Assembly (NCBI GenBank): GCA_027604005.1
Contig: JADGJT010000165.1
Span: forward strand, 1 to 44,712
DNA from: Dinochytrium kinnereticum
Taxonomy: Eukaryota > Chytridiomycota > Chytridiomycetes > Chytridiales > Chytridiaceae
Length of the DNA stretch: 44,712 nucleotides
Direction of reading: 5' to 3'
Part shown: positions 2,399 through 25,771 of the stretch, piece by piece
Layout of the letters: each line of letters opens with the position of its first letter
Numbering within the stretch: the stretch's first letter is position 1
Notes under the pieces: model-generated
Database searches by the model: none
Told to the model about the DNA's origin: nothing
What the model saw: only the letters and a program-made list of their open reading frames with translations
Program-made: the position numbers and the translations under genes

Positions 2399-3507
2399 TT
2401 GGGACCTTTAAATGTCGATGGTCGCATTCAATAACTATTGATTTGGTTTTCATAAGAGAGTAAATGTTTAGGAGCGAATTGAACGCCTTATACTGCACGC
2501 TGATATTATTGAAGACATGAGCAAGTATTCCAAGAGAAGATCACTTCTTCAACGGCATCAGCAGAGTGCTGGAGGTTCGTTGCATGCATACGGGTGTAGG
2601 GCAACGCTTTGGCAGGGAGATCCAACGTGATTTTCTTCCAGACTGCTTCCAGTTGAATACATTCAATAATCTCCAGTCAAGAAAATGCCTAGAGCCGAGG
2701 AGCATGTCCACCGTTGCATTTTGACTGGAAGAGTAGACTCTCTTTTATTTGGAAACTATCAACTTATCTCTGGATGGTGGTGGCTGGTAATTAGAGGCTG
2801 GAGAGGCACCATTCGCTGCTGTCTCATCAGGAACAAGAATGGACGAGGTTATGGTTACCCACTGTGTTTGGTGGATGGCTTCTTTGGGAACTATCACACT
2901 GAGGAGGTGAGGTGGCGGGAACTGCAATTGAGACTGATCGAGAAAGCAGCTGCAGACATACCGTTCTGAGTAGTTTCCCTCGTACGAATAAAAGAATGAA
3001 TGGCTGTCTGATCTAGATTGCCCGTCACTGAGGCTTGCGCAGAGACACTCTCATGAGATACGCGGTTTGAAAAACCAGAGGTTCCTTCCAAAAAAAGGTG
3101 CTGGCATTCATCCTAAAACGAATTCCACCTTTGGATTTGGAAGCAGTCGAATGATATTGCAAGTAACTCCAGCTTCACCTTCCATCAACACACGGAGGTG
3201 TGTGGACGTGATGTGCGAGGTGTTGTTGAAGGTTGAAGTTTAGATGGTTTTTTTGCTCCAGTTCGCCAGGTTTATACCTTCCACTTGCAGTGTGTGGCGC
3301 AGCCTGATTGGACCACGTCGTCGCAGTCAAGGCTCGAGAGATAAAACGACGACAGGCGATTAAGTGACGCTACAGCCATCACCGCGTCTGTTCAATGCTG
3401 TTGACGCGTGAGATCTGAAATATCCAACACGCAGCGTTAGGATCTGAACACCCCCCATGTCCTCACACCAATCACGTAGAACAGCCGTCACCTCTCCTCG
3501 GCAGCTC
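2399..3507. other. Intergenic stretch, nothing supported
   Basis: Short open frames occur on both strands, but none shows a domain, repeats or a convincing splice pattern. Close to 3240-3360 the sequence becomes more GC-rich towards the small open frame that follows. Confidence 0.4.
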
Positions 3508-3882
3508 ATGAAAGGCATTCTCACCTTGATGGCACTCACGACGTGCTGTGCGGCGCCGATTCTGCCCACCACCACTGTGGCCACCTCAAGCAGCGAACAC
3601 ACCGCCTTTGCAACGCCTGAAGACTTGGGATATTGGAACGCTGGACCTTGTGGCATGACGGCCGAGTACTTGGCCTCTCTTGAGGGGCTCTCATGGAAAG
3701 TTGGGGAAGTAAAGCAGATGGGGAATTACTATTACATGAGATTGAATGAGTATGAGGCTACATCAACATCTGGGAGTATCGTGGCGGAGAATGATATCGG
3801 AGTGACTCAAGAGGAGATTCAGGCAATGGCAGATGGCACTTACCGTGACGAGTATGAGCTACGTCGACGCCATGGGCTTTGA
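3508..3882 (+). CDS. Possible small secreted protein, unknown function
   Basis: A 124-residue open frame starts at an internal Met chosen because it gives a signal-peptide-like start: MKG, then a hydrophobic stretch, then a Cys-Cys-Ala-Ala region that could be cleaved before APILP. The mature part has a Gly/Tyr-rich patch (GNYYYMRLNEYEA) and an acidic end with the sequence DEYELRRRHGL. An earlier in-frame Met at 3457 would hide the signal peptide. I do not recognise a family. Downstream sequence in another frame (3850-4010) also reads without stops, so the gene may continue through an intron or a frameshift. The location in a transposon-rich spacer calls for caution. Confidence 0.35.
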   Translation: MKGILTLMALTTCCAAPILPTTTVATSSSEHTAFATPEDLGYWNAGPCGMTAEYLASLEGLSWKVGEVKQMGNYYYMRLNEYEATSTSGSIVAENDIGVTQEEIQAMADGTYRDEYELRRRHGL

Positions 3883-4733: not shown

Positions 4734-7227
4734 ATGGCGGACGACGACTGCGTGGTGCTTGCGAACCTGTTCCCAACCGTCTTCACCTTCGCATCGGCCT
4801 TTACGGGATGCTGCACGCTGAAGACCGTCGTCTGCGACAGCTCACGGACAAAGATCACCCAGCTGTGAGTGTGCACAGTTGCATGCATCCGTGATGTTCC
4901 TGCTGCCGATCGCTCACCTTCCTCAATGACCATTCCAGGCTGCTGGACAACGAACAGTTGACTGGGGCCATTCCCAGAGATGTGGTCAACTTCACGGCCC
5001 TCGACACCCTGAAGCTTGGTGATAATGCTTTGACAGGCACGATCCCTGTCGAGCTGGCGTCCATGAAGACGCTAAAGCATCTTGGCCTTGGGAACAATCG
5101 ACTGACGGGGACCATCCCTCCGGAACTTGGAGATCTGACTGACCTCGTTCACCTGTGAGCAAAACCCAACTGATTCATGCGTTCTGGCTCATTTTGGTCG
5201 TGGTTCTTGTCAAGCTTACGCTCTTCTTTGCAGGAACATATCATACAATCAGCTCACAGGAGAGGTCCCAACAACTTTAGCGAAATTGCTTAACCTGGAG
5301 TACCTGTAAGAAGTGAAAATATCATCTGGTGTTCCTTCTGACTGAATGCTAAACAGGTCGATTGGAGAGAACAAACTGACTGGGACACTGCCCGTCCAGC
5401 TTGCCGATCTCACTCGCTTGACTTTTCTTGACTTTCAGCCGAATCTCATGACGGGGATCATTCCGCCAGAGTATGGTAGATTGACGAATTTGAGGGGGCT
5501 GTAAGTAACCATTCCTTTTCCTTGCTTACCACTTCTGTGAGGAAATCCATTCCCAATTGGCATTCCTCTTCTTCCTCTCGTTTCTTTGTAACGACCAACT
5601 GTTGATCGATTGTAGTTTTCTTGCTGGTAATGGATTCACTGGAGGTGTTCCTCCTGAGTTGGGCAACCTTGAAAATCTCGAAAAACTCCATCTGTTTTCC
5701 AACAAGCTTTCTGGATCTATTCCGCCTGAGCTGTCCAAACCTCTGCGTTATGCCGATTTGTGAGTTTCATCTTTTCCACCAAATCTTCATGAATGCGACC
5801 ATCTTACATTCCATTTTACTGACCCCATTTGCATTGTTGGGTACATTAATCAAGCTTGATCCACGACAACGCATTTTACGGTGACGTTCCCGAGTTCATC
5901 TACAGGATTGGTCTTTACACGTTAGTTTTGAAGAGGGGTGCCAGCCTTTTCTTTGTCTAGTTTTTTTTTCCTTTAGTTTGGTGTGGCGATCTGGAGACAA
6001 CACTAATTCAACGATGTTTCGCACAGCCTCTATGGGAACTGTTTTAGACAAGGAGAGATCAATACCGCCGCCACTAAAGACTTTAAGTAAGCTCTATTTT
6101 CTTTTCTCTCCTGCTTTTTTTTCGCTGTTAAGAACGAAGCTAACAGGCAGGAAAAAAAACAATCAAAAAAAAAAAAACATTTTGAAAACTGCAGCATCAC
6201 TCAAAAATCCATAGCCACCTGCCAATCCATTCTCGGCTCATCATGGCCTACAATCCGTCCCACAGATCTTCCATCCCCTATTAACCCTACAGCACCCAAC
6301 CCCTCAAGGAGCTCCACTCCCTCCTCATCAAACAATAGCAACAACACCCTCCTCCTCTCCGCCGCAATCGGTGGGCCTCTTCTCCTCTGTCTCATTATCG
6401 GTATCATCATCGGCGTGGTGGTGACAAGACGGCGAAGAAGAAGAGCGGAGGAGGATGAAAAGAGCAACGCGACCTCCCACGGCTTGCCACGGGTCGATCC
6501 CAACAACATTCCATTCGCCTCAACCGTTGATGTTCGCAACGAATCCTCCACTCGACCCGGATACGTTGACGTCCATTACACCGTCAGAGAAGGCGGTGTC
6601 GACGTTCACCACCTCTCATACCTGCGGACAACCCCATCAGCACCTGCCACCTCAGTTTTGAGGCTTCCCGATCCGAACTCTGTTGAGATTGATAAGGAGA
6701 AGTTGAGGGGGAGGGGTACTTTGTTTTCGGGGATCTCGTCGACGACATCTGGTGGACCACCGTCGGGGTTTGCTTCTAAAGGAAGGTATAAGGAGAGGCA
6801 GCCCATGATTGAGCTTGAGAATGGTGATAAGACCGTGCCAAAGAATCTAGGGATCTCGTCTGTGGCGGGTTGGCAGAAGGAGGATGTGATTGCGTGGCTC
6901 TTGGCTTCTGGGATCTCACCCCTCATTATTGACGTGTTTGAAGGTAAACCCGTCTTTATTTGTCTTTCGCGCTGGTCGTTCATCCTGCCTGGCATTTCGT
7001 GCGCTGCCTTTTTGGGGGGGAAATAGAAACTAACGTTATTTGAATTCTTTAAAGACCACGATGTCTCAGGATACATGCTTCTCCTTCTCACGGATCAGAA
7101 GCTTATAGAGATGGGCGTTGGGTCATCAACCGCAAGAAACGTTATCCTGCATGCAATCGATGATCTGAGAGGGCGGGAGAACGGGTCAAAGAGACCGAGA
7201 TCTGAGCTTCCACCACAGTATTCTTAA
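4734..7227 (+). CDS. LRR gene A: LRR transmembrane protein with SAM domain and PPxY tail
   Basis: Putative receptor-like membrane protein of 584 residues. My exon model is 4734-4864, 4939-5154, 5234-5305, 5357-5500, 5616-5759, 5855-5920, 6027-6086, 6195-6943 and 7055-7227; it stays in frame throughout. Order: a plant-type LRR N-cap (DDC...LFP...GCC...C), about nine LxxLxLxxNxLTGxIPxE repeats of 24 residues, a C-terminal cap (GNCF, later TC), a Ser/Thr/Pro-rich stalk, one transmembrane helix (about 6349-6423) followed by RRRRRR, and a cytoplasmic tail with GTLFSGIS. A SAM domain split by a phase-1 intron follows, then the end LPPQYS. Ectodomain introns are phase 2 and exons are multiples of 72 nt. 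No signal peptide is seen, and an in-frame stop lies upstream. SAM domains normally mediate oligomerisation; PPxY binds WW domains. Ligand unknown. Confidence 0.85.
7210..7221 (+). other. PPxY motif at the C-terminus of LRR gene A
   Basis: The codons give Pro-Pro-Gln-Tyr, with one Ser between the Tyr and the stop. The class I WW-domain ligand is PPxY. The same placement recurs in genes B and C. Confidence 0.85.
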
Positions 7228-7671
7228 TTACTTCTGTCTCTGCTTTAGTCCCTTCTCTTTTCTTTTTTTTTTTTTCCAAGTTTTGTTAGTTTTTTGTTTT
7301 TTTTGTTTTTTTTTAAGGGGTGGAGGTTGGGGTTTGGGGGGTTGGCGGAGGCCGTCATGTTCTTCTGAGACGAATGAAATAAAGCAGGGACTTCTACATA
7401 AAGGAGGTCAGATGGAGCCCATGGTCCAAGAGGTTGCCGTATTGCTTTCGTTGATTTTGAGGTGAGTTCAGCCCAAATATTCACCAAAGGAGCGCCCGTG
7501 GCCGCCCACCTCCAGATCAACAAACGAAGGCATCCAGCGCGTCGTCCGTCCGTCGCTCGCCGTCGCCGTCGCCGTCGATCGCGACGATCAGGCTGCCGTC
7601 AAGTGCCTTGGCCCTTGAAATCCCTTGTCCTTGTCCCACTTGCCCCCAGGACTCAATCAATCCAGCCAGCC
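7228..7671. other. Spacer between LRR genes A and B
   Basis: T-rich 3' flank of A (poly-T around 7262-7315), then the GC-rich 5' flank of B with repeated GTCGCCGTC triplets (7548-7590). The frame upstream of B's start is open back to 7462, but it encodes an Arg-rich run from that repeat rather than a signal peptide, so I treat it as leader sequence. Confidence 0.5.
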
Positions 7672-10600
7672 ATGACGGACGCCGTCAGCGCCGAAGAATG
7701 CCGTCGTCTCGCCTCGGCCTTCCCCCAAATCACAGCGATGTCTGCGTCGCCAGCGTCATGCTGCGGATGGGCAAAGATCGCATGCAGCCCCAGCGATGGG
7801 AGGATTGAGAGGATGTGAGGGACGGTTGTTGGTGCGCCTGGTTTTGCTCATCTTTTTTCCCTCTCCTCGGTGACCATGCAGCGACCTTTCGTCAAGCGGG
7901 ATTGAGGGACGTCTGGACGGCTCTGCGTTTGCTTCTTTTCCGGGCCTAAAGTACCTGTGAGGGCATTTTGGTTGCTTTGTTTTTCTTGTGGTTCTTGAAT
8001 TGGGGTTGGGAGGGACGGAATGGCTCGTGCCTGCTCTTACATCCTCGGCCGTCATTGCATCCAGAGACCTTTCATGGAACAGATTCAACTCGACGCTGCC
8101 GCCGGGAATCGGGAATCTGACGGGCCTTCAACATCTGTGAGTTGTGCCTTCAAACAATCTCTTTGCTCTCACGCACCCCCCTTTGGTGGGCACCGGTTGG
8201 GTTCATTGAATCGTTTCTGGATCTTTTTTTTAACCTTTACGTTCTTGAATGGCTGTTAGCGACCTCTCCCACAACTTGTTCAGCGGCATCCCCACCGAGA
8301 TTGGGCAATTATCCAACCTGACCTTTCTGTGAGTTGGCACAATCAGATCGCTTTCAGTGAGATTGCTCATGAATACGTTTTACCTTTTATCAGATCTGTC
8401 TCTTTCAATAACTGCTCCGGGGCATCCCTACCCACCTCTATTGGCAACCTTCGAAACCTGCGTGAACTGTAATGCCGTAAATCAACACACCAGCTGTCTT
8501 TCTTATTTCCTTTTGCTTAGGTACCTCTATAGGGTCGGTTTATCAGGAGCCATTCCATCCGAGATAGGATTATTAACGAGTCTGAGCGTTCTGTTCGTAC
8601 CCCGTAACAATGAAAGTTTAGCTGACCTTTTGAGAACATTACAGAGATTTAAGAGATAATCTCTTCAGTGGACCTTTTCCGGCAGACATTTCAAGGTTAA
8701 AAAATCTGACGAAACTGTATGTGGTTTATTATTCAGTCTCTTCTTCGTCTTCTTCTTCCTTTTTTTCTTTTTTGAGTTATTCGGTTTAAAGGTTTGCTAA
8801 TCAGTGAATCCTTTTCCTTTTTTTCTCGATACAAGGCATCTTTCAAAGAACAGTCTCTCTGGGCCTATACCAGCTCAAATACAACATCTTGAAAACCTGA
8901 ATCTTTTGTAATCGTCTTTTTTTTTTATCAACTCCTTAACCATTTCCTTTTTATTAGGAGCCTGCATGATAATGATTTCTCTGGGTCTATACCGCCAGAG
9001 GTTGGCAAGTTAAAACGGCTTACAACGCTGTGAGTTATTTTGTTGTTGTTTTGTGTGTAGGGGGGGTATATCCCCTCTAACCCTAATTATTTCGCATACA
9101 ATCATGGCTGATAATATATTGATGTTTAGTGATCTCTCTATGAATGCGCTTGATGGGTCTTTGCCTATGGAGCTTGCTAGTATTTCGAGCTTGACGAATT
9201 TGTTAGTCTCACATTTGCCTCACTTCTTTGATCTTTGGTGGATTTTTCCATTTCATTTCCCTTTTGTTTCTTTTTCTTTTCTGTCTATCTCCTCGCCGCT
9301 GCGAGTACTTATATTTTTTGTCCATAGGTACATTCAATCCAATAAGATTATTGGAAGCATACCCATAGAGCTGGCAGATATGAAAGGGTTGCAGGAACTG
9401 TAAGTTTTAGAATTTTCTGTTTCCCGGCAGAACTATCTCTTCTATTTGCTTTTCTTAAAACGTGTTGCCTCTCTCATTCAAACAAAATCAGAGATCTGAG
9501 TGGAAATCTGCTGTCCGGATCTATTCCAAACCCCCTCTTCAACTTGTCGAAACTAAAGTGGGTTCTCACCTCTATTTTTTCCCTTCTCCTGCTGTTTTAT
9601 TCACATTGTTATTCAAGGTTGGACGGAAACTGTTTCGACACATCTTCATTTTCGAATCCCGGCTTGATTGAAAAGTAAGCTTCAAAAAAAAAAAAAATCC
9701 CTCAAGGTGTTGGGAAAACTCATCTTAACCGATTCTTCACTTTTCAGCACGACTCAACGCCCACAGACCCAATGCGGCCAACAGATCAACTCACCCCCTC
9801 TTACAAACCCTCCTCCCACTGCACCATCTCTCGCCGTTCCAATAGGAGCCTCCCTGACCGCGCTCCTTATCTTGGCCGTAACATTAACTTTCATCATTTT
9901 ATGGCTAAGAAAGCGGCGTCCCGACGCATCGCCGCCCAAGCCCAGTGGTGCACCTCCGATGGTCTGGCCGCGACGTTTCGAAACCGTTGACTCGGAGAAG
10001 ACGTCGACGCTGTTTGACAGCGCCTTGCCAAGGGCCTTTCATAATGGGGAGGATGAGGGCGAGGAGAAGGAGGCGGTTCGGGGTACACTGTTTGGGGATC
10101 TTCGGGGCAGCTTATTGAGGAAGGGGACGGGGAAGGACGAGGAAGAATACCAGACGAATGAAGGTGGGAGCTCGAGTCGTGGGATTGCCGAGAGGCAGGT
10201 TGCGACGTGGGGTGGCGGGGAGGTTGTGGAGTGGCTAAAGAGGGTTGGAGTTGCTGGGGAGGTTGTGGACGTCTTAAGGGGTGAGGAGTTGTGGCCTTGT
10301 TCTTTTCCTCCCAGTCGCCTTCTTCTTACCCTTTCATCTGTTTACTTCGTTTTTGGTTATTTTCGCCGTTTTGGGGTTTTGTTTTTCTCATACACTCCCT
10401 CCTTTCTTCATTGGCACTATCCTTGAGATTGTAAATCGCCCCAACCATTTATTTATTTCCTCGTGCTCATCCGTGTTTCCCCATTTCAACCTTTCAACTT
10501 TACGACAGCCAACGGCGTTGACGGCCCGAAGCTTCTAACCCTCACGGACGACAACTTGAGAGAGATGGGGATGGAGATGCCGACACGACGTGGCATCATC

Positions 10601-10693
10601 CTCCAATTGATCGCAGACCTCTCGCGCGACCATTTCAGCGACGGTGGTGGCCCAGCGGTTGCGGATGACGCCCCGCCCGTGTATGATGTTTAA
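7672..10693 (+). CDS. LRR gene B: LRR transmembrane protein with SAM domain and PPxY tail
   Basis: Paralogue of gene A, 568 residues. Exons: 7672-7814, 7882-7956, 8065-8136, 8260-8328, 8394-8468, 8521-8592, 8645-8716, 8836-8907, 8958-9029, 9130-9201, 9328-9399, 9492-9557, 9618-9674, 9748-10280 and 10509-10693. Eleven consecutive exons of 66-75 nt each encode one LRR, the cleanest one-exon-per-repeat layout of the cluster. The cap reads EEC...AFP...SCC...C, the C-terminal cap GNCF...QC, and the transmembrane helix lies near 9834-9908, followed by RKRRP. The tail has STLF and GTLF motifs, then a SAM domain split at the same phase-1 site as in A, and the end APPVYDV. AATAAA overlaps the stop codon (10692-10697). 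Two acceptors end in AAG (8835, 9617). Function is inferred from architecture only. Confidence 0.88.
10673..10684 (+). other. PPxY motif at the C-terminus of LRR gene B
   Basis: Pro-Pro-Val-Tyr followed by Asp-Val and the stop, the same position as in genes A and C. Confidence 0.85.
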
Positions 10694-11022
10694 TAAAAGA
10701 CCAAGTCTAACGCAGCGATTGCGGAGCGCGTCTCCACTGACGCTGACGCCTTCGCCGTCGCGAGCGTCGTTGGCCGTCGTCGTTCTTGTTTTCGCTCTTT
10801 CTCCCTTCTTGTGGCAAGGGGGGCTGTAGCACGAAGGCAAGACTTGCCCAAACGCCAGTGCCCAGTCTCAGTCACCCCTCAGCGACGCTGTCGATCACCG
10901 CCCGTCACAGCGACAGCGACCTCCGCGCCGTCGCATTCCACCTCGACCGTCATCGCATGCCATCGGGCGAGCGACGTGTTCTCTGCAGATACATCTAGAG
11001 GAAAAGAGATTTGGAGCACACC
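10694..11022. other. Spacer between LRR genes B and C
   Basis: GC-rich spacer of 329 bp with no supported gene. A TAG in frame with C's start lies about 27 bases upstream of its ATG, so the coding sequence cannot extend further without an upstream splice. Confidence 0.5.
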
Positions 11023-13245
11023 ATGTCCAGCCCCACCGACTGCGAGGTCCGTCATCACCCACCCAACCTGCCTTCCTCCACAACCCCATCCCACTTGGCC
11101 ATCCCACTCTTTCCATCCGTCCATCGCTTGCTGACCCGACCACCTTCCACAACCAACCAGATTCTCGCCAACGCCTTCCCATACCTCGCAAACCCCATCT
11201 CTGCGTCGTCCTGCTGCAACTCGACGTACATCACATGCGATGAAGGGCAAAGGATCACCAAGCTCGACATGTAAGACGGGGTGGGTGCGCTTTTTCTGCT
11301 TGCCGCTGACTGCTCTGCTTTCATCAGGATCGTTCACTCGGGGGACTCGCATCAGAAGTGGTGAGTCTTTTGGTTGAGGTTGCGTGTGTATGGATGGGGG
11401 TTTCTTCTTTGGGGGAATGGGAGTGGAGAGAGTTAAGACTTTTTTTACGACCCTCAGTGGGTCGTTCCCTTTCTGACCTTGAGGTGTCGTTCTCGCTGGG
11501 GAAGCCATACATTCTTGGTTTTGGACGAACAGGACGGTTGCTTCAAGCATCCATCCTTTGCAAAACTCTGGCCGCCTCTCTCAAGGAGGATATGTCCGGT
11601 GTACATCAGGTGTACATAAGAGGGAAGAGTTTTGACGGAGATGGGGGCTCTGTTATTCTGCCCCTCTTCTGTTGAGATGGGCAAAGGACGGCATTTCATG
11701 AAACAGTCTGACGCATCTGCCCAATTCTCCATCCCCAGGTACATCGCCATGAACACCCAGAACATGACGTTTCCAAAGGAGCTCACAGAGCTGACGAACC
11801 TGGAATATCTGTAGGGAGACAAATCCCTTCCTTTCCACTGGTTATGTTGAGGTCGTTTCCTGGGATTGCCCATAACACTTTTCTTGTTGCTCGGCCAGAT
11901 CCCTCCCTTACTTCAAATTGACGGGTTCCATACCCCCCGATATCCAAAAGCTCAAGAAGCTAAAGTTTCTGTGAGCCCCTTGCTTTTGCTTTTTTATGTC
12001 ATTTTCTGGGCTTCTTGCTTACCTGCGACGCTAACCATGCCTGTCAGTTCTCTCCCTATCAATTACCTCTCCGGTCCTGTACCCTCAGAAATAGCTAACC
12101 TTGAGCTATTGGAGACTCTGTGAGTCCTATTTACTTCCTGCTGGATGCAGGCTTTTCTGACTCTTTATCCACAGCGAGCTTTACAGTAATTATCTCACAG
12201 GGCCAGCTCCATCCTTCATCAAAAATCTTTGGTAAGTCACCACTTAACCATTTTGTGCATGCTGCGTCTAAAGGAAGAAAACAGGGCGACAAGACCAAGC
12301 ATCATCTCCCAAAACTGCTTCCCCATCTCCGACTTCTCCAGCGAAACCGAGTACCAAAAGTCTTCCCCCCGCTCATCAGAAGACTGCCTCCGCATGAACC
12401 CCCAAACATCGCAGCAGCCCACCGTCACAAACCTCTCATCATCATCATCCAAAGGTCCTTCCTCAGACTTCTCACAGCTCACCATCGTCGGGATCTCAAC
12501 GGCGTGTGTTATCACGGCTCTTCTGACCGCAGTGATTGGTGTTTGGGCGTGGCGTCGAAAAAGAGCGGAGCGAGGAATCGGCTCCTCACCTGTGGAGACA
12601 TCAAAGCCACTTTTCCCATCTGTTTCCACGGTTTCCTCCACGCAGACGGATGATGAAAGGATACAAGGAGGTGGTGAGGAGGTGGTAGTTGTTGAGAAGG
12701 AGTCGACGCTGTTTGCTGGAATCTCTGAGAGGAGGTCATTTTCAGGGGGCAAGGATGTGGTCGATGAAGGGAGTGAGATTGTGGATAGCCATAGTGAGCG
12801 TGTGGATGGACCATCTGAAAAGATTTTGCCAGAGGCCGTGATGGAATGGGGATGTGAGGAGGTTGCCCAGTGGTTCGGAGAGGTTGGGATCGCCGAAGAG
12901 GTCGTTGAGGTGCTAAGAGGTACGGTCACCTTTTGTTTTGGTTTCGCCGTTGCATCAATGTCTTAAGCTTCACCCGTCCTCTTCCTGTTCACTTTCCCCA
13001 AAAAATCCCTTTCTTTTTCTTTCTTTACTGACTCCATAAACCCAGCCAACGATACCACAGGATACCTACTTCTCCTCCTCTCGGACCGCAAGCTCCAGGA
13101 CATGGGTGTGCAAGTGCCATCCACCCGTAACATGATCCTCCGAGTCGTAGATGAGCTGAGGGCCAAGAGCGTTTCCTCCTCAACCATAACGCAAGACCAT
13201 GAGGAGCCGATTGCATCAGGGATGGAGCCTCCATCGTATTCATAG
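11023..13245 (+). CDS. LRR gene C: LRR transmembrane protein with SAM domain and PPxY tail
   Basis: Third SAM-bearing paralogue, 424 residues, with the shortest ectodomain of the three. Exons: 11023-11046, 11161-11270, 11328-11360, 11739-11810, 11899-11970, 12048-12119, 12175-12231, 12285-12919 and 13046-13245; this set keeps the frame. The cap reads TDC...AFP...SCC...C, split by a phase-0 intron after the first Cys. Only about four repeats follow, and the first (from 11328) is degenerate. The C-terminal cap is QNCF, later DC. The transmembrane helix is near 12478-12555, followed by RRKR. The tail has STLFAGISERRS, an acidic stretch, a SAM domain with the conserved phase-1 intron, and the end EPPSYS. 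The 378-nt intron 11361-11738 is long for this cluster and may hide a further exon. The first donor (GTCCGT) is weak. Confidence 0.78.
13228..13239 (+). other. PPxY motif at the C-terminus of LRR gene C
   Basis: Pro-Pro-Ser-Tyr with one Ser before the stop, as in gene A. Confidence 0.85.
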
Positions 13246-13884: not shown

Positions 13885-14142
13885 CTCACAACGCACATCA
13901 GACGACCTTAGCTGAGCAATAATGGCCGCCCCATCCGCAGACTGGTGAGCACGTTGTTGTTGTTGTTTGCAGTTGAAGCCATCAAGGGCCAGCATCACTC
14001 ACCGGCCGCCTGTGTGTGAATGGCACGGCCCATTCAAAACAGCGCTCTCGTCACCACCCTCTTCCCCACCGTCACCTTCCCGACCCCAAACTGCTGCATT
14101 GGCAACACGAATCTCGTCCGATGCAATGCGCAGGGGCAGATC
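13885..14142 (+). repeat. Duplicated 5' cassette, copy 1 (gene D)
   Basis: This 258-bp segment covers the promoter-proximal sequence, exon 1, the whole first intron and the cap-coding start of exon 2 of gene D. It aligns without gaps to 16311-16568 in gene E. I count about four mismatches, and the 98-nt intron is identical in both. Identity stops abruptly where the first LRR begins. Confidence 0.9.
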
Positions 14143-15495
14143 ATCTCGGTCCTCCTTTCCAATCGCAGCCTCAAAGGCCAGATTCCACCAGAGGTGTTCA
14201 CTCTGCCAGCTCTTACCTCCCTGTGAGTATGCGTAAAGGGTTGAGGCCCTTGCCGACGCAAGCAAACAGAATGCCGGGACTCACGTTTATGCCGCTACAG
14301 TGACTTGTCTAGAAACAACTTCACGGGTCCCATCCCTGACACCATCGCTTCCGCCACAAGTCTCACGTCGCTTTACGTGCAATCCAATCAACTCTCGGGG
14401 CCGATTCCAGAGTCTTTGGGGAGTTTGACCGCGCTGCGAGACCTGTAAGAACGTCCTTGACGACTCCTTTCCCCTCCCGCTCTCTTTCGTCTGCGTCCGT
14501 CTGCGTCCGTCTCTGCTCAGCACAGCTCGTCACTAATGCTGATGTTTTTTATGATCCTCTTTGGCGATAACTCAGGTTCCTCAACCAGAACAGCTTCACA
14601 GGCGGAATTCCGACTGCCCTGACGTCGCTCACTGCTTTGGAAAATCTGTAAGGGTTCTCTTAGCGCATCCGGCTGGTCCATCCGGGCTAACAAGAGCTTA
14701 CAGGATAGTCTTTTCGAATCAACTCATTGGACCGATTCCAACCAACATTGGAAACCTGGCAAGCCTTCGGACATTGTGAGTTTCAGCTCTGAGGGCCCTG
14801 GTTGCTCTGCGTGAAAAATGCAGCTCTCTCGTTCGCCCTTCCACATCCTATCCCCCAGTTAACCCACGTCCAATGTGAAACCTGATAGATCCATTTCAAG
14901 CAACACGTTGAATGGCATACTTCCAACGTCCATCAACAACTTGGGAAATCTCAGCGCCCTCTACATTCAAAATAACGCGTTCTATGGGACTCTTCCTGAA
15001 AGCATTTACCGAACAACGAACGTGACGTGAGTGCTTTTTCTTATTTTTTTTTTCTTCTTCTTCTTCTCAGAGAGAGAGTTTTTCTTTTCTCTGTTTTCTG
15101 TCAGGTTTTTTTCGTGTTTCTTTCTTCTTTCCGTATCAGCGCTTATAAAAAAAAACCATCCACAACCCCCGCGCCTCAGGCTCAACAACAATTGCTTCAT
15201 CGCCGAAACTGACCTGAAAAGTGGAGGCAACACTCGATTCGCACGGTGAGCTTCCCAAACTTTAGCTTCTCTTCATTGAAACGGGCAACAATTCAGGTAC
15301 AGCTCCAACCGTTCTCGTGACTTCTGTCGAGCCGCCGGTGCTCCGCTCTCAGTTCGAGAAACAATTGAGGTCAGCGGCACGGCATACATGTTGATGGTGA
15401 TCTTTGGTCCCATTCTGGCCGTCGTTGTCATATCGGTGATTGTGGCGGTGGTGTTGAAGAGCAACAGGAGAAAGGGAGGGAGTGATGCGGTTTAA
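13922..15495 (+). CDS. LRR gene D: short-tailed LRR transmembrane protein
   Basis: LRR membrane protein of 297 residues without a SAM domain. Exons: 13922-13944, 14043-14222, 14301-14444, 14576-14647, 14704-14775, 14889-15026, 15180-15245 and 15297-15495. The first intron ends at AACAG (14042), which restores the cap Cys (SADC); the cap continues LFP...NCC...C. About seven repeats follow, the last being NAFYGTLPESIYR, a version also seen in A and E. The C-terminal cap is NNCF...DFC. The transmembrane helix (LMVIFGPILAVVVISVIVAVVL) is followed by a tail of only about 12 residues ending GGSDAV. A TGA in frame nine bases upstream of the ATG rules out an N-terminal extension in the same exon. It may act as a co-receptor or decoy to the SAM-bearing members; that is inference. 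Confidence 0.85.
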
Positions 15496-16310: not shown

Positions 16311-16568
16311 CTCACAACGCACATCAGGCGACCTTAGCTGAGCAATAATGGCCGCCCCATCCGCAGACTGGTGAGCACGTTGTTGTTGTTGTTTGCAGTT
16401 GAAGCCATCAAGGGCCAGCATCACTCACCGGCCGCCTGTGTGTGAATGGCACGGCCCATTCAAAACAGCGCCCTCGTCACCACCCTCTTCCCCACCGTCA
16501 CCTTCCCGACCCCAAACTGCTGCATCGGCAACACGAATCTCGTCCGATGCAATGCGCAAGGGCAGATC
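16311..16568 (+). repeat. Duplicated 5' cassette, copy 2 (gene E)
   Basis: Near-identical partner of 13885-14142: same length, same intron, and only scattered single-base differences (for example CAGGCGACC against CAGACGACC upstream, GCGCCCTCG against GCGCTCTCG in exon 2). Flanking sequence on both sides is unrelated or strongly diverged. Confidence 0.9.
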
Positions 16569-18315
16569 ACCTCTCTCTTCCTCCTGAATCAAAACCTCAC
16601 TGGACCGATCCCTCCCGATGTGTTCTCCCTCCCAAGGCTGGGCTCACTGTAGGTGTTTTGCCGTTGACGTGCTGGAGTGAATGATCCATGAAGAGCTAAA
16701 CTCCTTCTGCAGCTCTTTTTTCGGGAATGACTTCACCGGCCCCATCCCCGAGGCAATATCAGAGGCCACGGGACTCACCTACTTTTCTGTGGGCGGCAAC
16801 CAGCTCTCTGGTCCGATTCCAGAGGGTTTGGGGAACCTGAAGGAACTTCAAACATTGTGAGTCTGGTTTTGTCCCGCTCTTTCTTGATACATGTGGTCTC
16901 TTTGCTGATCATTTGGCTGTCTCTTTTCTATATCGTTGTTGGTTGCTGTTGCTCTCTGGTGGATGCATAGGCACATGAACTCTAATCAGCTTACCGGAGA
17001 GATTCCGGCTTCGCTGGGAACCTTGCCGCAGCTTCAGGAACTGTGAGTTTACGTTCTTCTTGTTCTGAAATAAGCTGCTTGATTGACTCTTGCCATCGCT
17101 CTGCTTTACTGACGTTGCAATCGGGTTTTTTTTTTCTTTCTGATGGCAATGAACCAGTTACTTATTCCAAAACCAACTCACCGGGTCCATTCCATCATCC
17201 ATCGGCTCACTTGGCGCCCTTAGAAGATTGTAAGACTTTTTTCCATGTTTGGGGGGAAGGACGTCACCGGCCTCGCAAGATCTGAACCACTGACCATTCC
17301 CCCTTTTTATCGTAATGACATAGGTACATGTACCGCAACCGGCTGACCGGCGAGTTACCATCCACCCTGACCTCACTCACGGCCTTGGAAGATTTGTAAG
17401 GGATCTCAATCATTGTTCCTCTTTCACAGGCTAATAATTGAATGAATGTGATGCAGTGTCGTGTTTGGGAACGAGCTGTCGGGACAATTGCCAAACGACA
17501 TTGGGAACCTTGCAAGTCTTCAGTTATTGTTGGTTTTTCATTTTCCCCTTCTATCGTGCTTCATGACGTTTTTCTGGTTTCATTCACAAACTACTCTTGC
17601 AAACCCCTCACTTCTTTTTAACGTTGGTGCATTTTTTTTTAAAAAAAAAAAGGTCGGTTTCAAACAACACCTTGAGCGGCACCATTCCAGAATCCCTCAA
17701 CAATATCCGAACGCTTGGCTCTGTCTATCTTGCTGATAACACGTTTTACGGGCCACTTCCAGAAGCAATCTATAGAGTTGCGAACTTGACGTGAGTTTGT
17801 TTTTCTTTTTAGCGCTCAGAAGGTTTCTTTTATTGACGATTTGTTGCCATCATCCTACCCTCGTTCCAACCTATAATACCAGCATCGCCAACAACTGCTT
17901 CATACCCTCAACCGACCTAAACATTGCCGCTGGTGGTCTATTCGCAAAGTAAGCCTTCCCCCCCCCACAAACCTCCGCCATCCATCCAACAAAAACTAAC
18001 ACCACCACCACCACATCATCCAGCTACTCCTCAGACCGCTCAGCAGAAATCTGCCGCGCAGCAGGCGCCCCCATTCCATCCACAGCCTCGACAGTTCCCA
18101 TCCCAACAACGAACGTTGCCCCCGCAGCAGCCGCCACCGATAACAGTTCTGGCTTCAACCTCCCCGCTTCAAACACCCCGTCAAACGGCGGGATGGGATT
18201 CTTACTAGGTGTGATTCTGGGTCCGGTCTTATCCATCGTGCTTCTGACGGCGATTGCGACGGTTGTGATGAGCATGAGGAGGGGAAGGGGGAAGGATGTT
18301 GGGGGTAGGGTTTAA
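16348..18315 (+). CDS. LRR gene E: short-tailed LRR transmembrane protein
   Basis: Close paralogue of D, 376 residues. Exons: 16348-16370, 16469-16648, 16713-16856, 16971-17042, 17158-17229, 17324-17395, 17457-17528, 17653-17790, 17883-17948 and 18024-18315. The first exons match D almost exactly; the repeats do not, and E has two more. The ectodomain carries about nine LRRs, ending NTFYGPLPEAIYR, then the cap NNCF...EICRAAG and a Ser/Thr/Ala/Pro-rich stalk. The transmembrane helix (FLLGVILGPVLSIVLLTAIATVV) is followed by MSMRRGRGKDVGGRV at the C-terminus. There is no SAM domain. The acceptor at 17652 is AAG after a run of A. In-frame TGA just upstream of the start, as in D. Confidence 0.86.
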
Positions 18316-19356
18316 TGGGGGATCGTCCCTGCTCTGTGGTTCGGAGAGTGGTTGGGTTGTTTGTTCGGTTTTTAGTTTGCTCTCGCTCTTTGTCTCATCC
18401 TTGATTTGCCGTGTTTTTGTTGTTTTGGTTTTGTTTTTCTTCTTTTTTTTTCCTTTTTCTTTTTCCATGACTTTCCCAGTTGATTTCTATCATAACGAGC
18501 TTAATAATTTAGAGAAAAGATCTTTTCGCGACAACAGAAAAAAAAAGTAATGATCACGACAAACAAAAACGAAAAAGAAAAGAAAAGAAAAGAAGCATAC
18601 AATGATACAGAGACAAAGAAACCTCCTTGCGTTCCCGTGAACGTTTTCCAACAGCATTAACACTTAGAAGAATAATCCACGCCTCATGTTTGCTGACTCA
18701 AAGTCATGGCGATTGCTCGCTATGAGAGGAGGCATGGACATTGAGGTCCAGATGGTACGATAAAGGAGATAATACCAAACATCGCCATAACTTTTCTTTC
18801 TTATCTCAACGAAGCGATACTTGGCCTGGAATAGGTTTTGCGTTTGGAATTCCAGAATCAAAACAATGGTGTTCCACCACCCTCTGGTCCACTGAACCAT
18901 TCAAAGAAAACTTGCTTGGACGCGATGTTTATTTGGCTAGACACCCGGCCACTCTCCTTTCCTGCCGTCAGATCTGACACACATCCTTCCGTTTTTCGGC
19001 GGGGTTCAAGAGGAATTGAAGGAGCTTCACATTGCTGTGTGCTGTGGCATTTTTAACATCGCCAGTCCTTCAAAAAAAAAAAAAAAAGAGAAGAGAAGGA
19101 GAAAAAGAAAAGAAAAAGAAAGGAAAGGAAAGCAACCAGTTTGTAGCAAGTTTGTAGGGACTTTTTTAATTGAAAAATAGAAAGAAAAGTGCAGATATTG
19201 AAAAGCATATGTATTCATTAAACAGTGAGGTGATGAGGCCCTTCGTTATCACCCAAAACACACATCATGAGAAAAGAAAAAGAAGATCCAAGCTCCGCGT
19301 GTATGTGGCAAAAAACAATGTTTCGATGAGCGTTGATAGCACCAAGAATCCAAGCT
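18316..19356. other. Intergenic stretch between convergent LRR genes E and F
   Basis: Over 1 kb of 3' flanks with A- and T-runs (for example 19070-19088). A minus-strand open frame at 18664-18900 ends in a plausible-looking sequence (MPPLIASNRHDFESANMRRG), but I find no upstream exon or family match and do not call it a gene. Confidence 0.4.
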
Positions 19357-20955
19357 CTACGCATAGGTGACCTTGGTCTCAGTGGCGGTCGAAACCGGGG
19401 TCGGAGCCGGGGTCGACTTTTCCACATCCTCCTTCTCCTTTCTGCCCCTCAAAAAGACGCACGCGTAGACGACATAGCTCATCACGGAAAACAAGGCAAC
19501 GCCCACAGCGATCCCAACCTTTGTCGTGGTCCTGGACCAATCAATGCCCCCTCCACCTCCACCGGACGATGACGAAGACGATGAGGAGGGAGGCACCGTC
19601 GGAAGCGGGTCACGAGACGTGGAGGAGGGTCGTGGGAAGGACAGGGTGAACGACTGGCTGGGTGATGCTGTGCCAGCCTCCGTCGCCAAGGGAAGCTCGG
19701 CGAGACCTGAAGCGACGCGACAGGCGTTTCGAGACTTGGTGGAGTAGATGGTGCTGTTCCCAATGCGAGAGACGTCAACGTCGTCAGAGTCAAAGCAGTT
19801 TCCGTCGACCCTGACGGATGGGACGTTGTAGACAAAGGATGGGAGGGGGCCGGACAGGGCGTTGTTGGAGATGAAGAAGAGTCGGAGGCCTCTTAGGTCA
19901 ATGAGGTCTGGAACGCTTCCGGTCAGCAGGTTGTCGAACACGACGAGATTGCTGAGCTGTGTGAAACGAGAGAGCCATGAGGGGAGCGGTCCGGTGAGGA
20001 GATTCTCGTTCAGGTACAGCTCTCGGAGGTTTGTTAGGGTGCTCCAGGAATCGGGGATGGGTCCACTAAACTGGTTTTTCCCCAGGACGAGCTCTTCAAG
20101 GGTTTGAAGACTTCCGAGGGACGCTGGGAGGGGCCCCGAGAGATTGTTGGTGTTGAACGAAAGCACCTTGAGTTTTGTGAGGCTGCTCAAGTCTGGCAAG
20201 GATCCCACGAGCTGGTTGGAATGAATGGTAACGAGCTCAAGGTTTTGGCAGTTGCGGAGGGAGGTGGGGATTTCACCAGAGAGCTGGTTGAGGGACATTG
20301 AGACGTTGACGAGTTTTGTGAGAGAGCCAATGTCATTCGGGATAGGGCCTGTTGTTTGAAGTCACCGTTAGCTGATGAGCTATTGCTGCGCTTTCATGCT
20401 GTCCACCGCACCGTCCATCAAGCATGAAAGATGAAAAGGCTGCAGATCGCTTACCAGTCAGCTCATTGACCTGAAGATACAATTCTTCAAGGTTGGTCAA
20501 GGAGGTCAAGGAGGAAGGGATGGGACCAGAGAGTCTGTTTCCAGAGAGCGCCAAACCGACAAGGTTGGGTAGAGTGCCGTAGGAGGCTGGAATGGGGCCG
20601 GTGAAGTTGTTGTCCCAGAGGTTCAACCTCTGCAGGCTCTTCAGCTGGCCGATGGACTCTGGGAGTTGACCAGAGAGGCCCTTCTGAATAAAGTCTCTGT
20701 TGTTTGTTTTTTGTTTTTTTTTTGTTTGTTTGTTTGAGAGGGAAGGAAAGAAGGAAGACGCGTTAGCGATGCACTGCAGCAGCAGGAGAGAGTCGATGGA
20801 GAAAGACGGGCGACGGGAGGGGAAGATTCTCACAGCTGGATGATGCTGCCGGCGTCATTGCAATACACGTCGTTGAGACCACAGCACGCCGTGGAGGGGA
20901 TGCTGAGAGAAGGAAAGGCGGCCGCCACGATGGCGCATTCGGCGTTGTTCGACAT
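19357..20955 (-). CDS. LRR gene F: short-tailed LRR transmembrane protein, intron-poor
   Basis: Minus-strand member of the family, 451 residues, convergent with E. Exons in coding order: 20955-20834, 20696-20455 and 20348-19357. The cap is AEC...AFP...ACC...C, ending at the usual phase-2 junction. About ten repeats follow (for example NQFSGPIPDSW), then the cap GNCF and NACRVASG, a Ser/Pro/Gly-rich stalk (S and G runs), a transmembrane helix (VGIAVGVALFSVMSYVVYACVFL) and a short tail ending ETKVTYA. There is no SAM domain. Unlike A-E, most repeats lie in one uninterrupted 992-nt exon, and the second intron is phase 1 inside the TG|GP of a repeat, a position not used in the other genes. This suggests intron loss, perhaps through a reverse-transcribed copy, plus one intron gain. 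Confidence 0.85.
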
Positions 20956-22217: not shown

Positions 22218-23391
22218 TCACCCACACTCACAAGTATCCTTCCAATTCGAGCTCCAAGCCCCAACATCACTCGCCCGACTCCTCCCCAGCTCGCTCAACT
22301 TCTCCTCCGTCTCCTCAAGAAGATGCTTGAGCTGTCTCTTGGCCCCCCCAATCTTGCACCCATTATGAGCAGAGGTGATGTTGTCGAAATCCCAATCGTG
22401 AATCAGCTTGCTCATCCAGCATTGGAATAGCTTGGGCGCCTCTTCGGTTGGGTGAAGACCGGGACCGAGGATGGAGCGGTGGAAGAGCATGGTGCCCTCG
22501 CTTATCCCAGCCATTCGCATGAGGAGGCCTGGTTGCTGGAAGATGAGGATGGTGTCGTCCTACAAGTAAAGAGTGATGGTGGTTGCACATGGTGGTTAGC
22601 CCTGGACGAAAAGCACATAGATAGACATTCCAGAAAGTTGAGGGAGATGATTAAGAACAAGAAGAAAAAGAGAGGAGATCCACTAACGACATGAATGGTT
22701 CTGCTAGCCTTGTGAAAAACAAACACGTTGCTAAAGTGGTTGGTGCGCTCCGGAAGAGGGTTCACGAACTCGGATCCAGCAGGGATCCTCATTTCAATCT
22801 CCGGCTCCCATAAGGCCCTAACCTCCTCGTCGTTCAAATCACCTTCCCTGTGTAAACAATAGGTGCCCAATTGATAATCAGATCTCTCATCAAATAGAAA
22901 GAAACAAGAGACGAAGAAAAAAGAAAGACAATGGGATGAAACCACCCCCCCCCCTCCCTTTTCCCCACCAAGGAATCCCGGTAATGTTCCTCAGATGCCG
23001 CGGAGTTCCATAATACTTTACATCAGGATAAGCCTCATGAAACGCCGGAAAGAACATGGTGTGAAACGGGTGCGTCCCCAACACGGCATCCATCAACCTT
23101 CCATGATCCGTCAACAGGTCAACCTCAAGCCTTGTCTCTGGGGTCAGCTCGACCGTGTCAATAACCAAGAAGCGCCCGTTCCTGAGACGAACAAAGCTCA
23201 TATGCGTGCCAATGTCCACGAGCCCAAACAGGTACTTGAACGGCTGCAGTTGGAGGGGTGAAGGAGGGATGAAACGGTTCAGCCATCCAGCAGCCATCGA
23301 GGCAGGCAGGCAGACAGTCACTCACCGCGCGCAGACTGAAGAATCCCGGCGCGATCTCCTTGATGTCCTTGAGGCGCGCAGGCGATGCCAT
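22218..23391 (-). CDS. Metallo-beta-lactamase-fold-like protein
   Basis: Four exons in coding order: 23391-23326, 23243-22969, 22847-22688 and 22559-22218, giving 280 residues that stay in frame. Near the N-terminus DIGTHMSFVRLRNGRFLVIDTVEL matches the first strands of the MBL fold. It is followed by GTHPFHTMFFPAFHEAYPDVKYYGTPRH, the layout of divergent MBL-like proteins of the DUF4336 kind. Here a THPFHT motif stands where classical enzymes have HxHxDH, so canonical zinc binding is uncertain. A later SAHNGCK may supply a further His. Substrate unknown; hydrolase or structural role cannot be decided. It is transcribed divergently from the Crinkler-like gene, with 322 bp between the start codons. 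The stop at 22218 depends on no splicing at the GTGAGT/GTGAGG donors just before it. Confidence 0.65.
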
Positions 23392-23713: not shown

Positions 23714-25771
23714 ATGTTGGCGGGCAATGGGCGTCCTGAGGTCAGGGTGTGGATCAGGTACCTCAGCACCGACGACCTCTTCACCGTCACCGTCCCAAGG
23801 GGCAGCACCGCAAGAACAATCAAGATCAAATGCCTCGCTCGTCTCTTCTCTCCCTCCAGCACCCTCAGCGAGTCCAGCTTTGGGCTGATGAAGGGTGACC
23901 TGCGCTTGAACAGCGACGAGCCCGTCGCGCTGCACTATGTGACGCAGGTCAGCCCTCTCGTCCTCATCGACGAGTCGCCCACGCCAAGCATCACCTTCAC
24001 CGGGCCCATCAACCCGTCCCTTCATTTCGAGATCAAGCTTGGAGAGCTGCCCTGGGGTAAGGAAGTGTTGGGGGCCATCGACGCTGGGGATTCCGTCGTT
24101 CTCTCTGGGTATCAGCAGTCTGGTCGGACCAGCGCCTTGCTGAGCATCCAGAGGGCTTTCCATGATCGAGGGGTCAAGGCCCATTACGTGGACCTCTCGG
24201 AGCTGTGGGATGATGACTCTGTCTCTCTCTTTCGTTACCTGGCCTCCTGGATGCGGCTGACGGGTGACGTTGCGGGCATCACCACGTCCTTTGACTTTTA
24301 CGAGCTGGTGTTCAACGCCAACAAGGAGCCGCCCCTCCTCCTCATGGATGAAGGGGCCATCGTGCTTGGAGAGAATGGTGAGCAGAGCGCAAAGAGGTTG
24401 AGGGAGCTTGAGCTTCTTCTGGGTGCAAATCGGAGATGCCAGGCTCAAGGACGTGGGTTTGCAGCGATCGTGTTTGCCGGCAGCTGGTGGTTGGCTGAGA
24501 ACCTTGCAGAGGGTTTCAGGGGCGAGACGGACGGTGAGGATCCCATTCACTCGGAGATATCACAGAGATGGTCGCATGCGATTCACTTTATTCAGGTCGA
24601 GGGCTTCCCCAAGGAGACCTTTCAAGACTTTGTTGGTATGATTTTGAAGGCGCTCACCTTGTCCAGACCCCTCTCGAGCAAGACGCTCTCGAACAAGGCT
24701 CTCTCTGGAATCATTGCGGAGGATATTTGGGAGCTTACAGGTGGTCATCCCGGGTTTTCGATGCAGCTCTTGAAGGGTGCCATGGACTATGCGACAGGAC
24801 TCGAGGACAAAGATAAGTTTCCTGCAGAGTGGTTGGGCGTGAAACGGACCTTGGTGGAGCGATTGCATGCGTCGCTCTCTGTAAGGCGACTCGTCAACCG
24901 TCTCCTGTCTTTCAAGGGGCCGTCCGTCCATTCCCCCAACAATACCTCACCTTTACAGCTATTGACAACCGACTACACCGCGTCAGCGAGGCTGATCCCA
25001 GCTTCTCTCATTGTGAACGGCATTGCAGAACCACTTCCCGCCGACGCCTACCGTGTTCGTCTGACGAGCCCACTCCTCCGAGACGTAATCATGAAGGACT
25101 CCATCTTGTTCAAGACCCCAAAGGCCCCACTCGCTTTCATGGAAAAGGACAGTGCCCTGTCAGGCTCCCCGTTTGCAATGCTCACCGACATCTCCCTCAA
25201 AACCACCTCGGGCTACATTCTCGACCTTCTCATCCATCCCGATGATGAGACCACCAGCCTTTTCTCCGTTCCGCGGATCCACCTCGAATTCTTTCGATGC
25301 GCCTCCTCCATCTTCTCGGCCGATCGGTACCGCGTTCACCCCGAGAGCACAGTTTGTGATTCGGGTGCGGCCGCCGCAGCCGGGACGCTGGACACGTGCA
25401 GCCTGTGGATGCGGGAAGCGGCGATGCAAGCACCACACCACATGATCTCGTTCCTCTCTGAGCAAACGTATCTCGACAACATTCAAAAGGCCAACACGAT
25501 CCTTTCCAAGCATTTTCAGTCGACGGCGCTTCGAGAGATGGTGTTTGTGGTCTTCTTGTCTCGAAGGGAGGCTGCCGCCTTCATCAGCTTTCCGCTCAAG
25601 GTCGACTTGCAGATCCCTGCGATTGGTGAGGGCGGTCCCTCTGTTCACCTGCTTTTCGTCACGAGCAGTCGGGATGGGGATCGGAATGCGGTTTGGAGGA
25701 TCGCTGTGGGGTTTGGTTTTAGGGATTGGCATTCGGGAGGATGGGTGAGGCTCTCGCGGGGGGCGAGGTGA
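23714..25771 (+). CDS. Crinkler (CRN)-like protein: ubiquitin-like header plus P-loop NTPase
   Basis: Intronless, 685 residues. Residues 1-65 form a beta-grasp-like header (VRVWIRYLSTDDLFTVTVP...). The P-loop domain has the Walker-A-like GYQQSGRTS near residue 130 and a Walker-B-like LLLMDEG near residue 207. A Gly-Gly-His-Pro segment (ELTGGHPGFSMQLLKGA) near residue 345 is of the kind seen in STAND/MNS-type NTPases. This matches the known CRN layout of header, NTPase and variable C-terminus described for oomycetes and chytrids; the oomycete LFLAK motif is absent. I cannot identify the C-terminal 200 residues; many CRN C-termini are nuclease-like. The first in-frame Met (23441) would add 91 low-complexity residues, so I start at MLAGNG. 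No signal peptide. In free-living fungi such proteins may act in conflict or defence rather than as host effectors. Confidence 0.7.
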   Translation: MLAGNGRPEVRVWIRYLSTDDLFTVTVPRGSTARTIKIKCLARLFSPSSTLSESSFGLMKGDLRLNSDEPVALHYVTQVSPLVLIDESPTPSITFTGPINPSLHFEIKLGELPWGKEVLGAIDAGDSVVLSGYQQSGRTSALLSIQRAFHDRGVKAHYVDLSELWDDDSVSLFRYLASWMRLTGDVAGITTSFDFYELVFNANKEPPLLLMDEGAIVLGENGEQSAKRLRELELLLGANRRCQAQGRGFAAIVFAGSWWLAENLAEGFRGETDGEDPIHSEISQRWSHAIHFIQVEGFPKETFQDFVGMILKALTLSRPLSSKTLSNKALSGIIAEDIWELTGGHPGFSMQLLKGAMDYATGLEDKDKFPAEWLGVKRTLVERLHASLSVRRLVNRLLSFKGPSVHSPNNTSPLQLLTTDYTASARLIPASLIVNGIAEPLPADAYRVRLTSPLLRDVIMKDSILFKTPKAPLAFMEKDSALSGSPFAMLTDISLKTTSGYILDLLIHPDDETTSLFSVPRIHLEFFRCASSIFSADRYRVHPESTVCDSGAAAAAGTLDTCSLWMREAAMQAPHHMISFLSEQTYLDNIQKANTILSKHFQSTALREMVFVVFLSRREAAAFISFPLKVDLQIPAIGEGGPSVHLLFVTSSRDGDRNAVWRIAVGFGFRDWHSGGWVRLSRGAR

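Follow-up and report, generated by a model that had tools for sequence, protein, structure and literature searches.

An expanded family of putative kinase-less LRR receptor-like proteins with SAM–PPxY tails in the chytrid Dinochytrium kinnereticum

Three adjacent genes (A, B and C) on the forward strand of a 44,712-nucleotide stretch of the genome of the chytrid Dinochytrium kinnereticum (the window) raise the question of what a fungal LRR protein might do with a tail that ends in a SAM domain and a PPxY motif. The reading favoured here, at somewhat better than even probability, is that they are members of an expanded Chytridiales family of kinase-less receptor-like proteins with a single membrane pass, in which the ectodomain would meet a ligand, the SAM domain would bring tails together and the terminal PPxY would most likely recruit the Rsp5/NEDD4 orthologue.

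Gene models and domain architecture

The spliced models of the three genes, which are paralogues, each encode LRRs, a single TM segment, a tail, a SAM domain and a C-terminal PPxY, and thus bear out the architecture originally predicted for the region 6195–13245, which is bounded by the start of gene A exon 8 and the gene C stop codon. Gene A (4734–7227) comprises nine exons (4734–4864, 4939–5154, 5234–5305, 5357–5500, 5616–5759, 5855–5920, 6027–6086, 6195–6943 and 7055–7227) and encodes 584 aa ending with PPQY; gene B (7672–10693) has 15 exons, 568 aa and a terminal PPVY, while gene C (11023–13245) has nine exons, a short LRR region and 424 aa with a terminal PPSY. The LRR exons of gene B are mostly 72 nt long (range 57–75) and are separated by phase-2 introns, which are also found between LRRs in plants. 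Gene A is annotated as HDU67_002336 (P0001, 594 aa), and its mis-splicing was rejected, as the annotated protein agrees with the spliced model except for a deviation around exon 7.

P0001 exceeds the Pfam cut-offs for LRR_1, LRR_4, LRR_8 and LRR_14 (plant-type LRR), its LRR residues 61–190 are modelled by AF2 at 88–98, and MIK2, FLS2 and other plant receptors are the best fold matches of the whole gene A model in Foldseek (best 50 matches listed). With plant LRR receptor-like proteins and kinases of the FLS2, MIK2 and ERL type, the chytrid proteins share a 24-residue plant-type LRR solenoid, a Cys-containing N-cap and a predicted single TM segment, but they are fungal, lack a kinase and an obvious signal peptide, and carry the SAM–PPxY tail instead. 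Pfam matched no kinase or TIR domain in P0001, P0002, P0003, P0006 or P0013 and nothing in the piece 23714–24880, and NCBIfam gave LRR-type bacterial families, far below cut-off.

The SAM domain and its candidate partners

The SAM domain spans 6868–7170 in gene A, 10196–10621 in gene B and 12835–13158 in gene C, and in all three it is split, as had been predicted, by the same phase-1 intron (6944–7054, 10281–10508 and 12920–13045, respectively). P0001 scores above the Pfam cut-offs for SAM_2 (31.9 bits) and SAM_1 (31.7 bits), and the whole spliced tails match solved SAM structures at 2.9e-6 (A), 4.3e-4 (B) and 2.2e-4 (C), with a profile of 24 tails reaching Liprin-beta-1 in the PDB at 1.1e-17. 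Single exons carry less signal: the second-half SAM exon of gene B falls below the Pfam cut-off (18.3 vs 23 bits), and the exons holding the first half of the domain give no SAM match by themselves in any of the three genes (E up to 1). AF2 models SAM residues 511–570 of P0001 at 86–93, with helices at 508–575. None of the 50 listed Foldseek matches of the gene A model, all LRR proteins, concerns its SAM; for the related P0010, whose ectodomain is modelled at low confidence, SAM domains make up nearly all of the 50 fold matches listed (CNK2 best at E 1.7e-3, DGK-delta at TMt 0.91), no E-value being below 0.001. The SAM of P0002 is below cut-off (13.5 vs 20.5 bits), and the central part of the domain is apparently missing from this gene model. 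A misreading of these regions as SAM was rejected on the profile match, the Pfam result for P0001, the AF2 helices and the sister-tail fold match, so that the original assignment withstood structural matching. The profile and fold matches span many kinds of SAM; polymerising SAM domains, such as those of TEL, Ph and DGK-delta, associate head to tail through their ML and EH surfaces.

Inside the cell, a disordered linker would be followed by the SAM, which may gather the tails either by binding itself or by pairing with other SAM proteins. Such pairing could itself provide the output if the domain were a heterotypic coupler to the SAM of a MAPKKK of the Ste11/Byr2/Bck1 type, with a MAP-kinase cascade downstream and the PPxY merely limiting receptor lifetime. 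SAM pairing of this sort is known for fungal Ste50 and Ste11, and C134, the highest-scoring SAM of the genome, seems to be part of a gene with a Byr2-type Ras-binding domain (31.3 bits, cut-off 27) and a kinase (read by eye), the three being read as separate pieces. However, other SAM proteins exist too, such as a Vts1-like protein (C2, by eye), and coupling to the MAPKKK is an unlikely reading.

The terminal PPxY motif and WW partners

The motifs lie at 7210–7221 (PPQY, then S and stop), 10673–10684 (PPVY, then DV and stop) and 13228–13239 (PPSY, then S and stop), and their distances of 1, 2 and 1 residues from the C-terminus fall within the one to three residues originally stated. In six frames of the window, a PPxY ending within six residues of the stop, with an open segment of at least 20 aa, precedes 6 of 2798 stop codons; a chance motif was rejected, as apart from A, B and C just three stops have a PPxY so near. 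Because the genes are paralogues, the three motifs are not three independent events, and conservation is a better test than the chance count.

A, B and C are part of a putative kinase-less fungal LRR receptor family. After two unrelated SAM genes, the MAPKKK-like C134 and the Vts1-like C2, had been set aside, 32 SAM loci were read in the genome, a set without C84:48450, C110 and C386. PPxY follows the SAM in 24 of them and ends at most six residues from the stop in 19; it lies farther away in C536b (20 residues), C536a (22) and C87 (21), and two C80 loci, which have the motif but reach no stop, were counted outside the six-residue class. The remaining eight loci have no PPxY (C112, C313, C395b, C174, C52, C20, C185 and C179 at 3420–3720); C112 and C313 have LPxY in its place, C185 was read for 113 aa without reaching a stop, and C20 may be something other than receptor-type. 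As a family feature, the terminal PPxY is therefore common but not universal (five loci farther from the stop, eight without it). Besides these loci, the proteins P0002, P0011 and P0012 have PPxY after the SAM. Annotated P0013 (locus C12) lacks it because its model runs beyond a PPGYS stop present in the DNA. Of 19 loci, 15 have LRRs or LRR motifs ahead of the SAM, and the SAM tail is of one type throughout; this count leaves out nine late loci together with C18b, C395a, C395b and C179a. C179a and C536a correspond to annotated P0005 and P0008. One comparison lost C494, and in it the limits of the C50, C148 and C395a tails were poorly defined.

An Rsp5 orthologue is present in the genome (C152); it has three WW matches and a HECT domain cut by the contig end, and its WW3–HECT piece matches RSP5 at 1.9e-72. 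Given at least 20 WW matches in the genome, Rsp5 is not the sole candidate partner. The PPxY end of P0001 scores below 50 in the AF2 model, and the motif probably sits in an accessible, disordered C-terminus, presumably on the cytoplasmic side. In the favoured mechanism, an exchangeable ectodomain, a plant-type LRR in most members examined, would meet a ligand outside; the ligand would drive SAM clustering of the tails; and the terminal motif would act as a WW ligand, most likely for the Rsp5/NEDD4 orthologue. Receptors that have clustered might thereby be ubiquitinated and internalised by endocytosis, or the ligase might be used as the output. A precedent for SAM and PPXY in one protein is ACK1/TNK2, for which it is reported that the PPXY is bound by NEDD4-1/2 WW domains, that its SAM can potentially dimerise or multimerise and that SAM deletion prevented EGF-induced ubiquitination (PMC3101793); ACK1 differs in being a non-receptor tyrosine kinase without TM or LRR and with an N-terminal SAM. 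Docking of a non-ligase WW adaptor for signalling or scaffolding instead, for instance the C324 protein, whose listed matches include three WW and no HECT, is rather improbable, considering that C152 has WW domains of the NEDD4 kind and that the SAM protein ACK1 is reported to recruit NEDD4 directly via its PPxY (PMC3101793).

Topology, motif retention and related designs

The most hydrophobic 21-residue segment, taken as the TM of each protein, lies at 6361–6423 in gene A (aa 334–354, directly followed by RRRRRR; AF2 helix 344–380 of P0001), at 9842–9904 in gene B (aa 362–382) and at 12481–12543 in gene C (aa 213–233), with KD means of 2.75, 2.33 and 2.19. Net charge is 0 over the 15 residues before it and +3, +4 and +4 over the 15 residues after it, a basic C-side flank that would fit a cytoplasmic tail. 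By hydropathy alone, no typical signal peptide was seen in A, B, C or P0002, for which 5' exons may be missed; their N-termini start near the Cys cap, and those of A (KD 1.88, residues 6–20) and P0002 (1.76) have weak hydrophobic segments. Seven others, read by eye, likewise lack a typical signal peptide and have Cys at residues 4–11. Such N-termini would fit proteins that are not surface receptors at all, with the LRRs in the cytosol or at an internal membrane and the tail organising membrane contact or traffic. This is doubtful in the extreme, however, in view of the basic flank, the Cys cap and S/T-rich stalk of the LRR members, both typical of extracellular parts, and the hydrophobic, signal-peptide-like N-termini of the same-tail sister members P0005, P0007 and P0012.

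Over 190 pairs of 20 rows, mean identity is 16% in the linker and 37% in the SAM; the C-terminal consensus is [D/E][A/V/L]PPxY(S), and of the 21 rows having [PL]PxY, 18 are acidic at −2. The PPxY, on whose retention the original prediction depended, is kept in a relative of gene A from Chytridium lagenaria, and also in the relatives that non-LRR members have in Phlyctochytrium. Although every copy is paralogous, the notion of a functionless, inherited motif can practically be discarded given its retention at such linker identity, its acidic −2 residue and its presence in other genera.

Several known designs are partly similar. Eph receptor tyrosine kinases are single-pass proteins whose cytoplasmic part ends with a SAM and then a short C-terminal docking motif, as in A, B and C; they differ in having a kinase, another ectodomain and a PDZ-binding motif where the chytrid proteins have PPxY. 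LRSAM1 combines LRR and SAM in one polypeptide with a link to ubiquitin, but it is a cytosolic RING ligase with no TM and no terminal PPxY. LRR-TM genes are known from a few early fungi, a chytrid included: a survey reported only five, in 4 of 49 genomes, and predicted no further domain in any of them, unlike the SAM–PPxY tails described here (Soanes and Talbot 2010, PMC2939053). No LRR-TM-SAM receptor turned up among the listings of an open-licence paper library, in agreement with the original remark that no described LRR receptor with this combination was known. A predicted receptor design of a class thought near-absent from fungi occurs as a family in one chytrid genome. If these proteins are receptors, LRR-based cell-surface recognition in fungi becomes testable, and their logic would be SAM clustering plus ubiquitin-ligase docking with no kinase, amenable to short peptides and single domains.

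The LRR–SAM–PPxY combination is real in A, B and C, but LRRs are not its only partner: the same tail is joined to two non-LRR ectodomain types. The SAM tail is also found in relatives from two other genera. A broader and more tentative proposal is that chytrids might own a kinase-free receptor superfamily, in which exchangeable LRR, CFEM-like and other Cys-rich ectodomains are mounted on a standard tail (TM, basic stop, LF-type linear motif, SAM and terminal PPxY); such proteins would be to fungi what LRR receptor kinases are to plants, except that their first output would be clustering and a ubiquitin ligase, not phosphorylation. A search with the consensus tail found one protein.

Genes A, B and C within their cluster

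Exon-by-exon reconstruction places gene A at 4734-7227 (584 aa), gene B at 7672-10693 (568 aa) and gene C at 11023-13245 (424 aa), all on the forward strand. The spliced models share a single order: an N-cap that contains Cys is followed by plant-type LRRs, and after a hydrophobic segment with a basic flank come a tail of roughly 100-150 residues, a SAM domain and a terminal PPxY. The layout and coordinates in the original prediction were correct. The LRR exons are mostly 72 nt or multiples thereof with phase-2 introns, and one phase-1 intron interrupts the SAM in all three models, as had been proposed. The PPxY, said to lie within one to three residues of the C-terminus, is followed by 1 (A), 2 (B) and 1 (C) residues. 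Gene A is annotated in Dinochytrium kinnereticum, a member of Chytridiales, as HDU67_002336 (P0001; 99% identity over 96% of the searched region). Several public models of the annotated proteins look faulty, including P0001 (around exon 7), P0002 (mid-SAM missing), P0003 (TM missing), P0011 (fusion with an alg13-like domain) and P0013 (reading past a PPGYS stop).

No signal peptide is evident at the N-termini of the LRR members A, B, C and P0002 (from Chytridium lagenaria), nor, by eye, at those of seven others. These members begin near the Cys cap in two genera (A, MADDDC from 4734; B, MTDAVSAEEC from 7672; C, MSSPTDC from 11023; P0002, MATEC), a consistency that argues against misplaced starts while allowing for missed 5' exons. 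The LRR members may be exported as type III proteins via the TM; the rival reading of these leaderless starts is that the LRR part is cytosolic.

A, B and C are classed as putative single-pass LRR receptors, a known kind, from which they differ in the tail. Soanes and Talbot reported LRR receptors from 4 of 49 fungal genomes, as five genes, none with another domain (PMC2939053). No LRR-TM-SAM receptor, nor any report of the SAM-PPxY tail, was found in searches of an open-licence paper library that covers only a minority of subscription papers and bioRxiv preprints, in agreement with the original prediction that the combination is not known from a described LRR receptor.

Three further LRR-TM genes, recognized by eye and by LRR motifs, lie at ~14020-15495 and ~16446-18315 (forward strand) and ~20955-19357 (reverse strand). 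Their tails are very short, with no SAM or PPxY seen by eye at their ends, and they might represent co-receptors or decoys. The 5' regions of the two forward-strand genes are near-identical. The piece 23714-24880 of a gene at 23714-25770 has no Pfam match, and its N-terminal region is reminiscent of Crinkler-type proteins. At the cluster edge (1-1300), a fragment of a Copia-like retrotransposon polyprotein was recognized by eye.

Identity of the SAM and LRR domains

The SAM of the gene A family is real. In P0001, SAM_2 (31.9 bits) and SAM_1 (31.7 bits) both exceed the curated Pfam cut-offs, as do four LRR families. The predicted SAM regions also stood up to comparison with solved domains: a 24-tail profile (23 D. 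kinnereticum loci plus P0002) matched the solved Liprin-beta-1 SAM at 1.1e-17, together with the SAMs of SARM1, SAMD12 and CNK2, and single tails matched solved SAMs at 2.9e-6 (A), 4.3e-4 (B) and 2.2e-4 (C). The AlphaFold2 model of P0001 (11 sequences; mean pLDDT 63.7, pTM 0.46) shows confident LRRs at residues 61-190 (block-mean pLDDT 88-98), a predicted TM helix at 344-380, a SAM at 511-570 (pLDDT 86-93) and a PPxY-containing end at 579-594 with pLDDT <50. Foldseek ranked plant LRR receptors highest for this model (MIK2, 6.3e-16; FLS2, 2.9e-15). For the sister protein P0010, the model matched solved SAMs with a best E of 1.7e-3 (CNK2) and with DGK-delta at TMt 0.91 and rmsd 1.0.

A gene family with a modular tail and a retained PPxY

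Exon searches of the 22.4 Mb D. kinnereticum genome (558 contigs) revealed numerous SAM exons of the gene A/B/C type, the counts being lower bounds, and the three genes belong to a family. Among the first 23 loci, PPxY follows the SAM in 18, LPxY in 2 and neither in 3, and PPxY lies no more than 6 residues from the stop in 17. Nine further loci came from a Pfam SAM_2 search and were not picked for resembling A, although the gene B tail additionally matched one of them, C536a. PPxY follows the SAM in 6 of these nine and lies near the stop in 2, giving 24/32 and 19/32 in total. A script restricted to phase-1 donors located one after the SAM N-half at 16 of 22 loci, and a looser pattern added 5 more. 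Beyond A, B and C, whose LRRs come from models, at least two loose LRR motifs lie upstream of the SAM in 12 of 16 further loci, with 3 of the 7 motifs at C537b belonging to a neighbouring gene; none occur at C148, C536b, C179b and C553 among these 16. A strong TM segment shares the SAM open frame at 10 of 14 loci tested, and C50 and C179b have a TM-like stretch in a preceding frame (by eye). On contig C80, a SAM exon pair (19322-19435 and 22921-23031) is followed by LPEY and PPxY close together, both internal within the stretch read.

The TM-SAM-PPxY tail is modular, carrying at least two ectodomain types besides LRR. Non-LRR Cys-rich ectodomains precede it in P0004, P0005, P0007, P0009, P0010 and loci C536 and C179. 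One type, which has conserved cysteines and resembles CFEM, is present in P0005, P0007 and P0012, whose N-termini are hydrophobic, and likewise in the fused model P0011; the other is a short Cys-rich domain (P0004, P0009, P0010). Pfam names neither type in the annotated family proteins scanned, and the CFEM likeness is therefore a reading by eye. Across ectodomain classes, an LF-centred motif lies between TM and SAM (GTLFSGIS in gene A, EKESTLFAGIS in gene C). The pattern [EDQ]K, 0-3 residues, [STGN], 0-1 residue, [LMIV][FW] occurs in 9/25 tails (shuffled mean 0.4, maximum 5). For [STGN]x?[LM]F the count is 16/25 (shuffled mean 5.5, maximum 12). Since both patterns were picked after inspection, the LF-centred motif is only a lead.

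The PPxY is kept while the surrounding sequence changes. The linker from SAM to motif ranges from 9 to 57 residues among 19 PPxY rows (18 loci plus P0002), and its mean identity is 16% against 37% for the SAM (190 pairs from 20 rows, two LPxY rows included and C18b omitted). Among 21 rows with [PL]PxY, D or E occupies position -2 in 18 and S position +1 in 11. Relatives retain the motif at their C-termini: PPLYS in P0002, a relative of gene A, PPPYMTGGRS in P0012 of Phlyctochytrium planicorne (similar to P0005) and PPPYMGN in P0011, taken as the same species (similar to P0007).

Candidate partners of the tail

An Rsp5 orthologue is encoded on contig C152, where three WW matches are followed by a HECT match truncated by the contig end, and the piece from the third WW to HECT matches RSP5 at 1.9e-72. 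We infer that, most likely, contact with a ligand or substrate would gather the receptors, that the SAM would keep tails together or link them to another SAM protein, and that the terminal PPxY would bring Rsp5, whose arrival would lead to ubiquitin-dependent endocytosis, turnover or signalling. ACK1 offers a precedent for pairing SAM with PPXY: NEDD4 ligases are reported to bind its PPXY, and deleting its SAM to prevent EGF-induced ubiquitination (PMC3101793). A possible SAM partner of the receptor tails is encoded by an apparent gene on contig C134, where a SAM, a Byr2-type Ras-binding domain and a kinase (the last by eye) follow one another. The MAPKKK-like stretch there runs from C134:38711 to about 45400 (pieces L001, L062 and L063).
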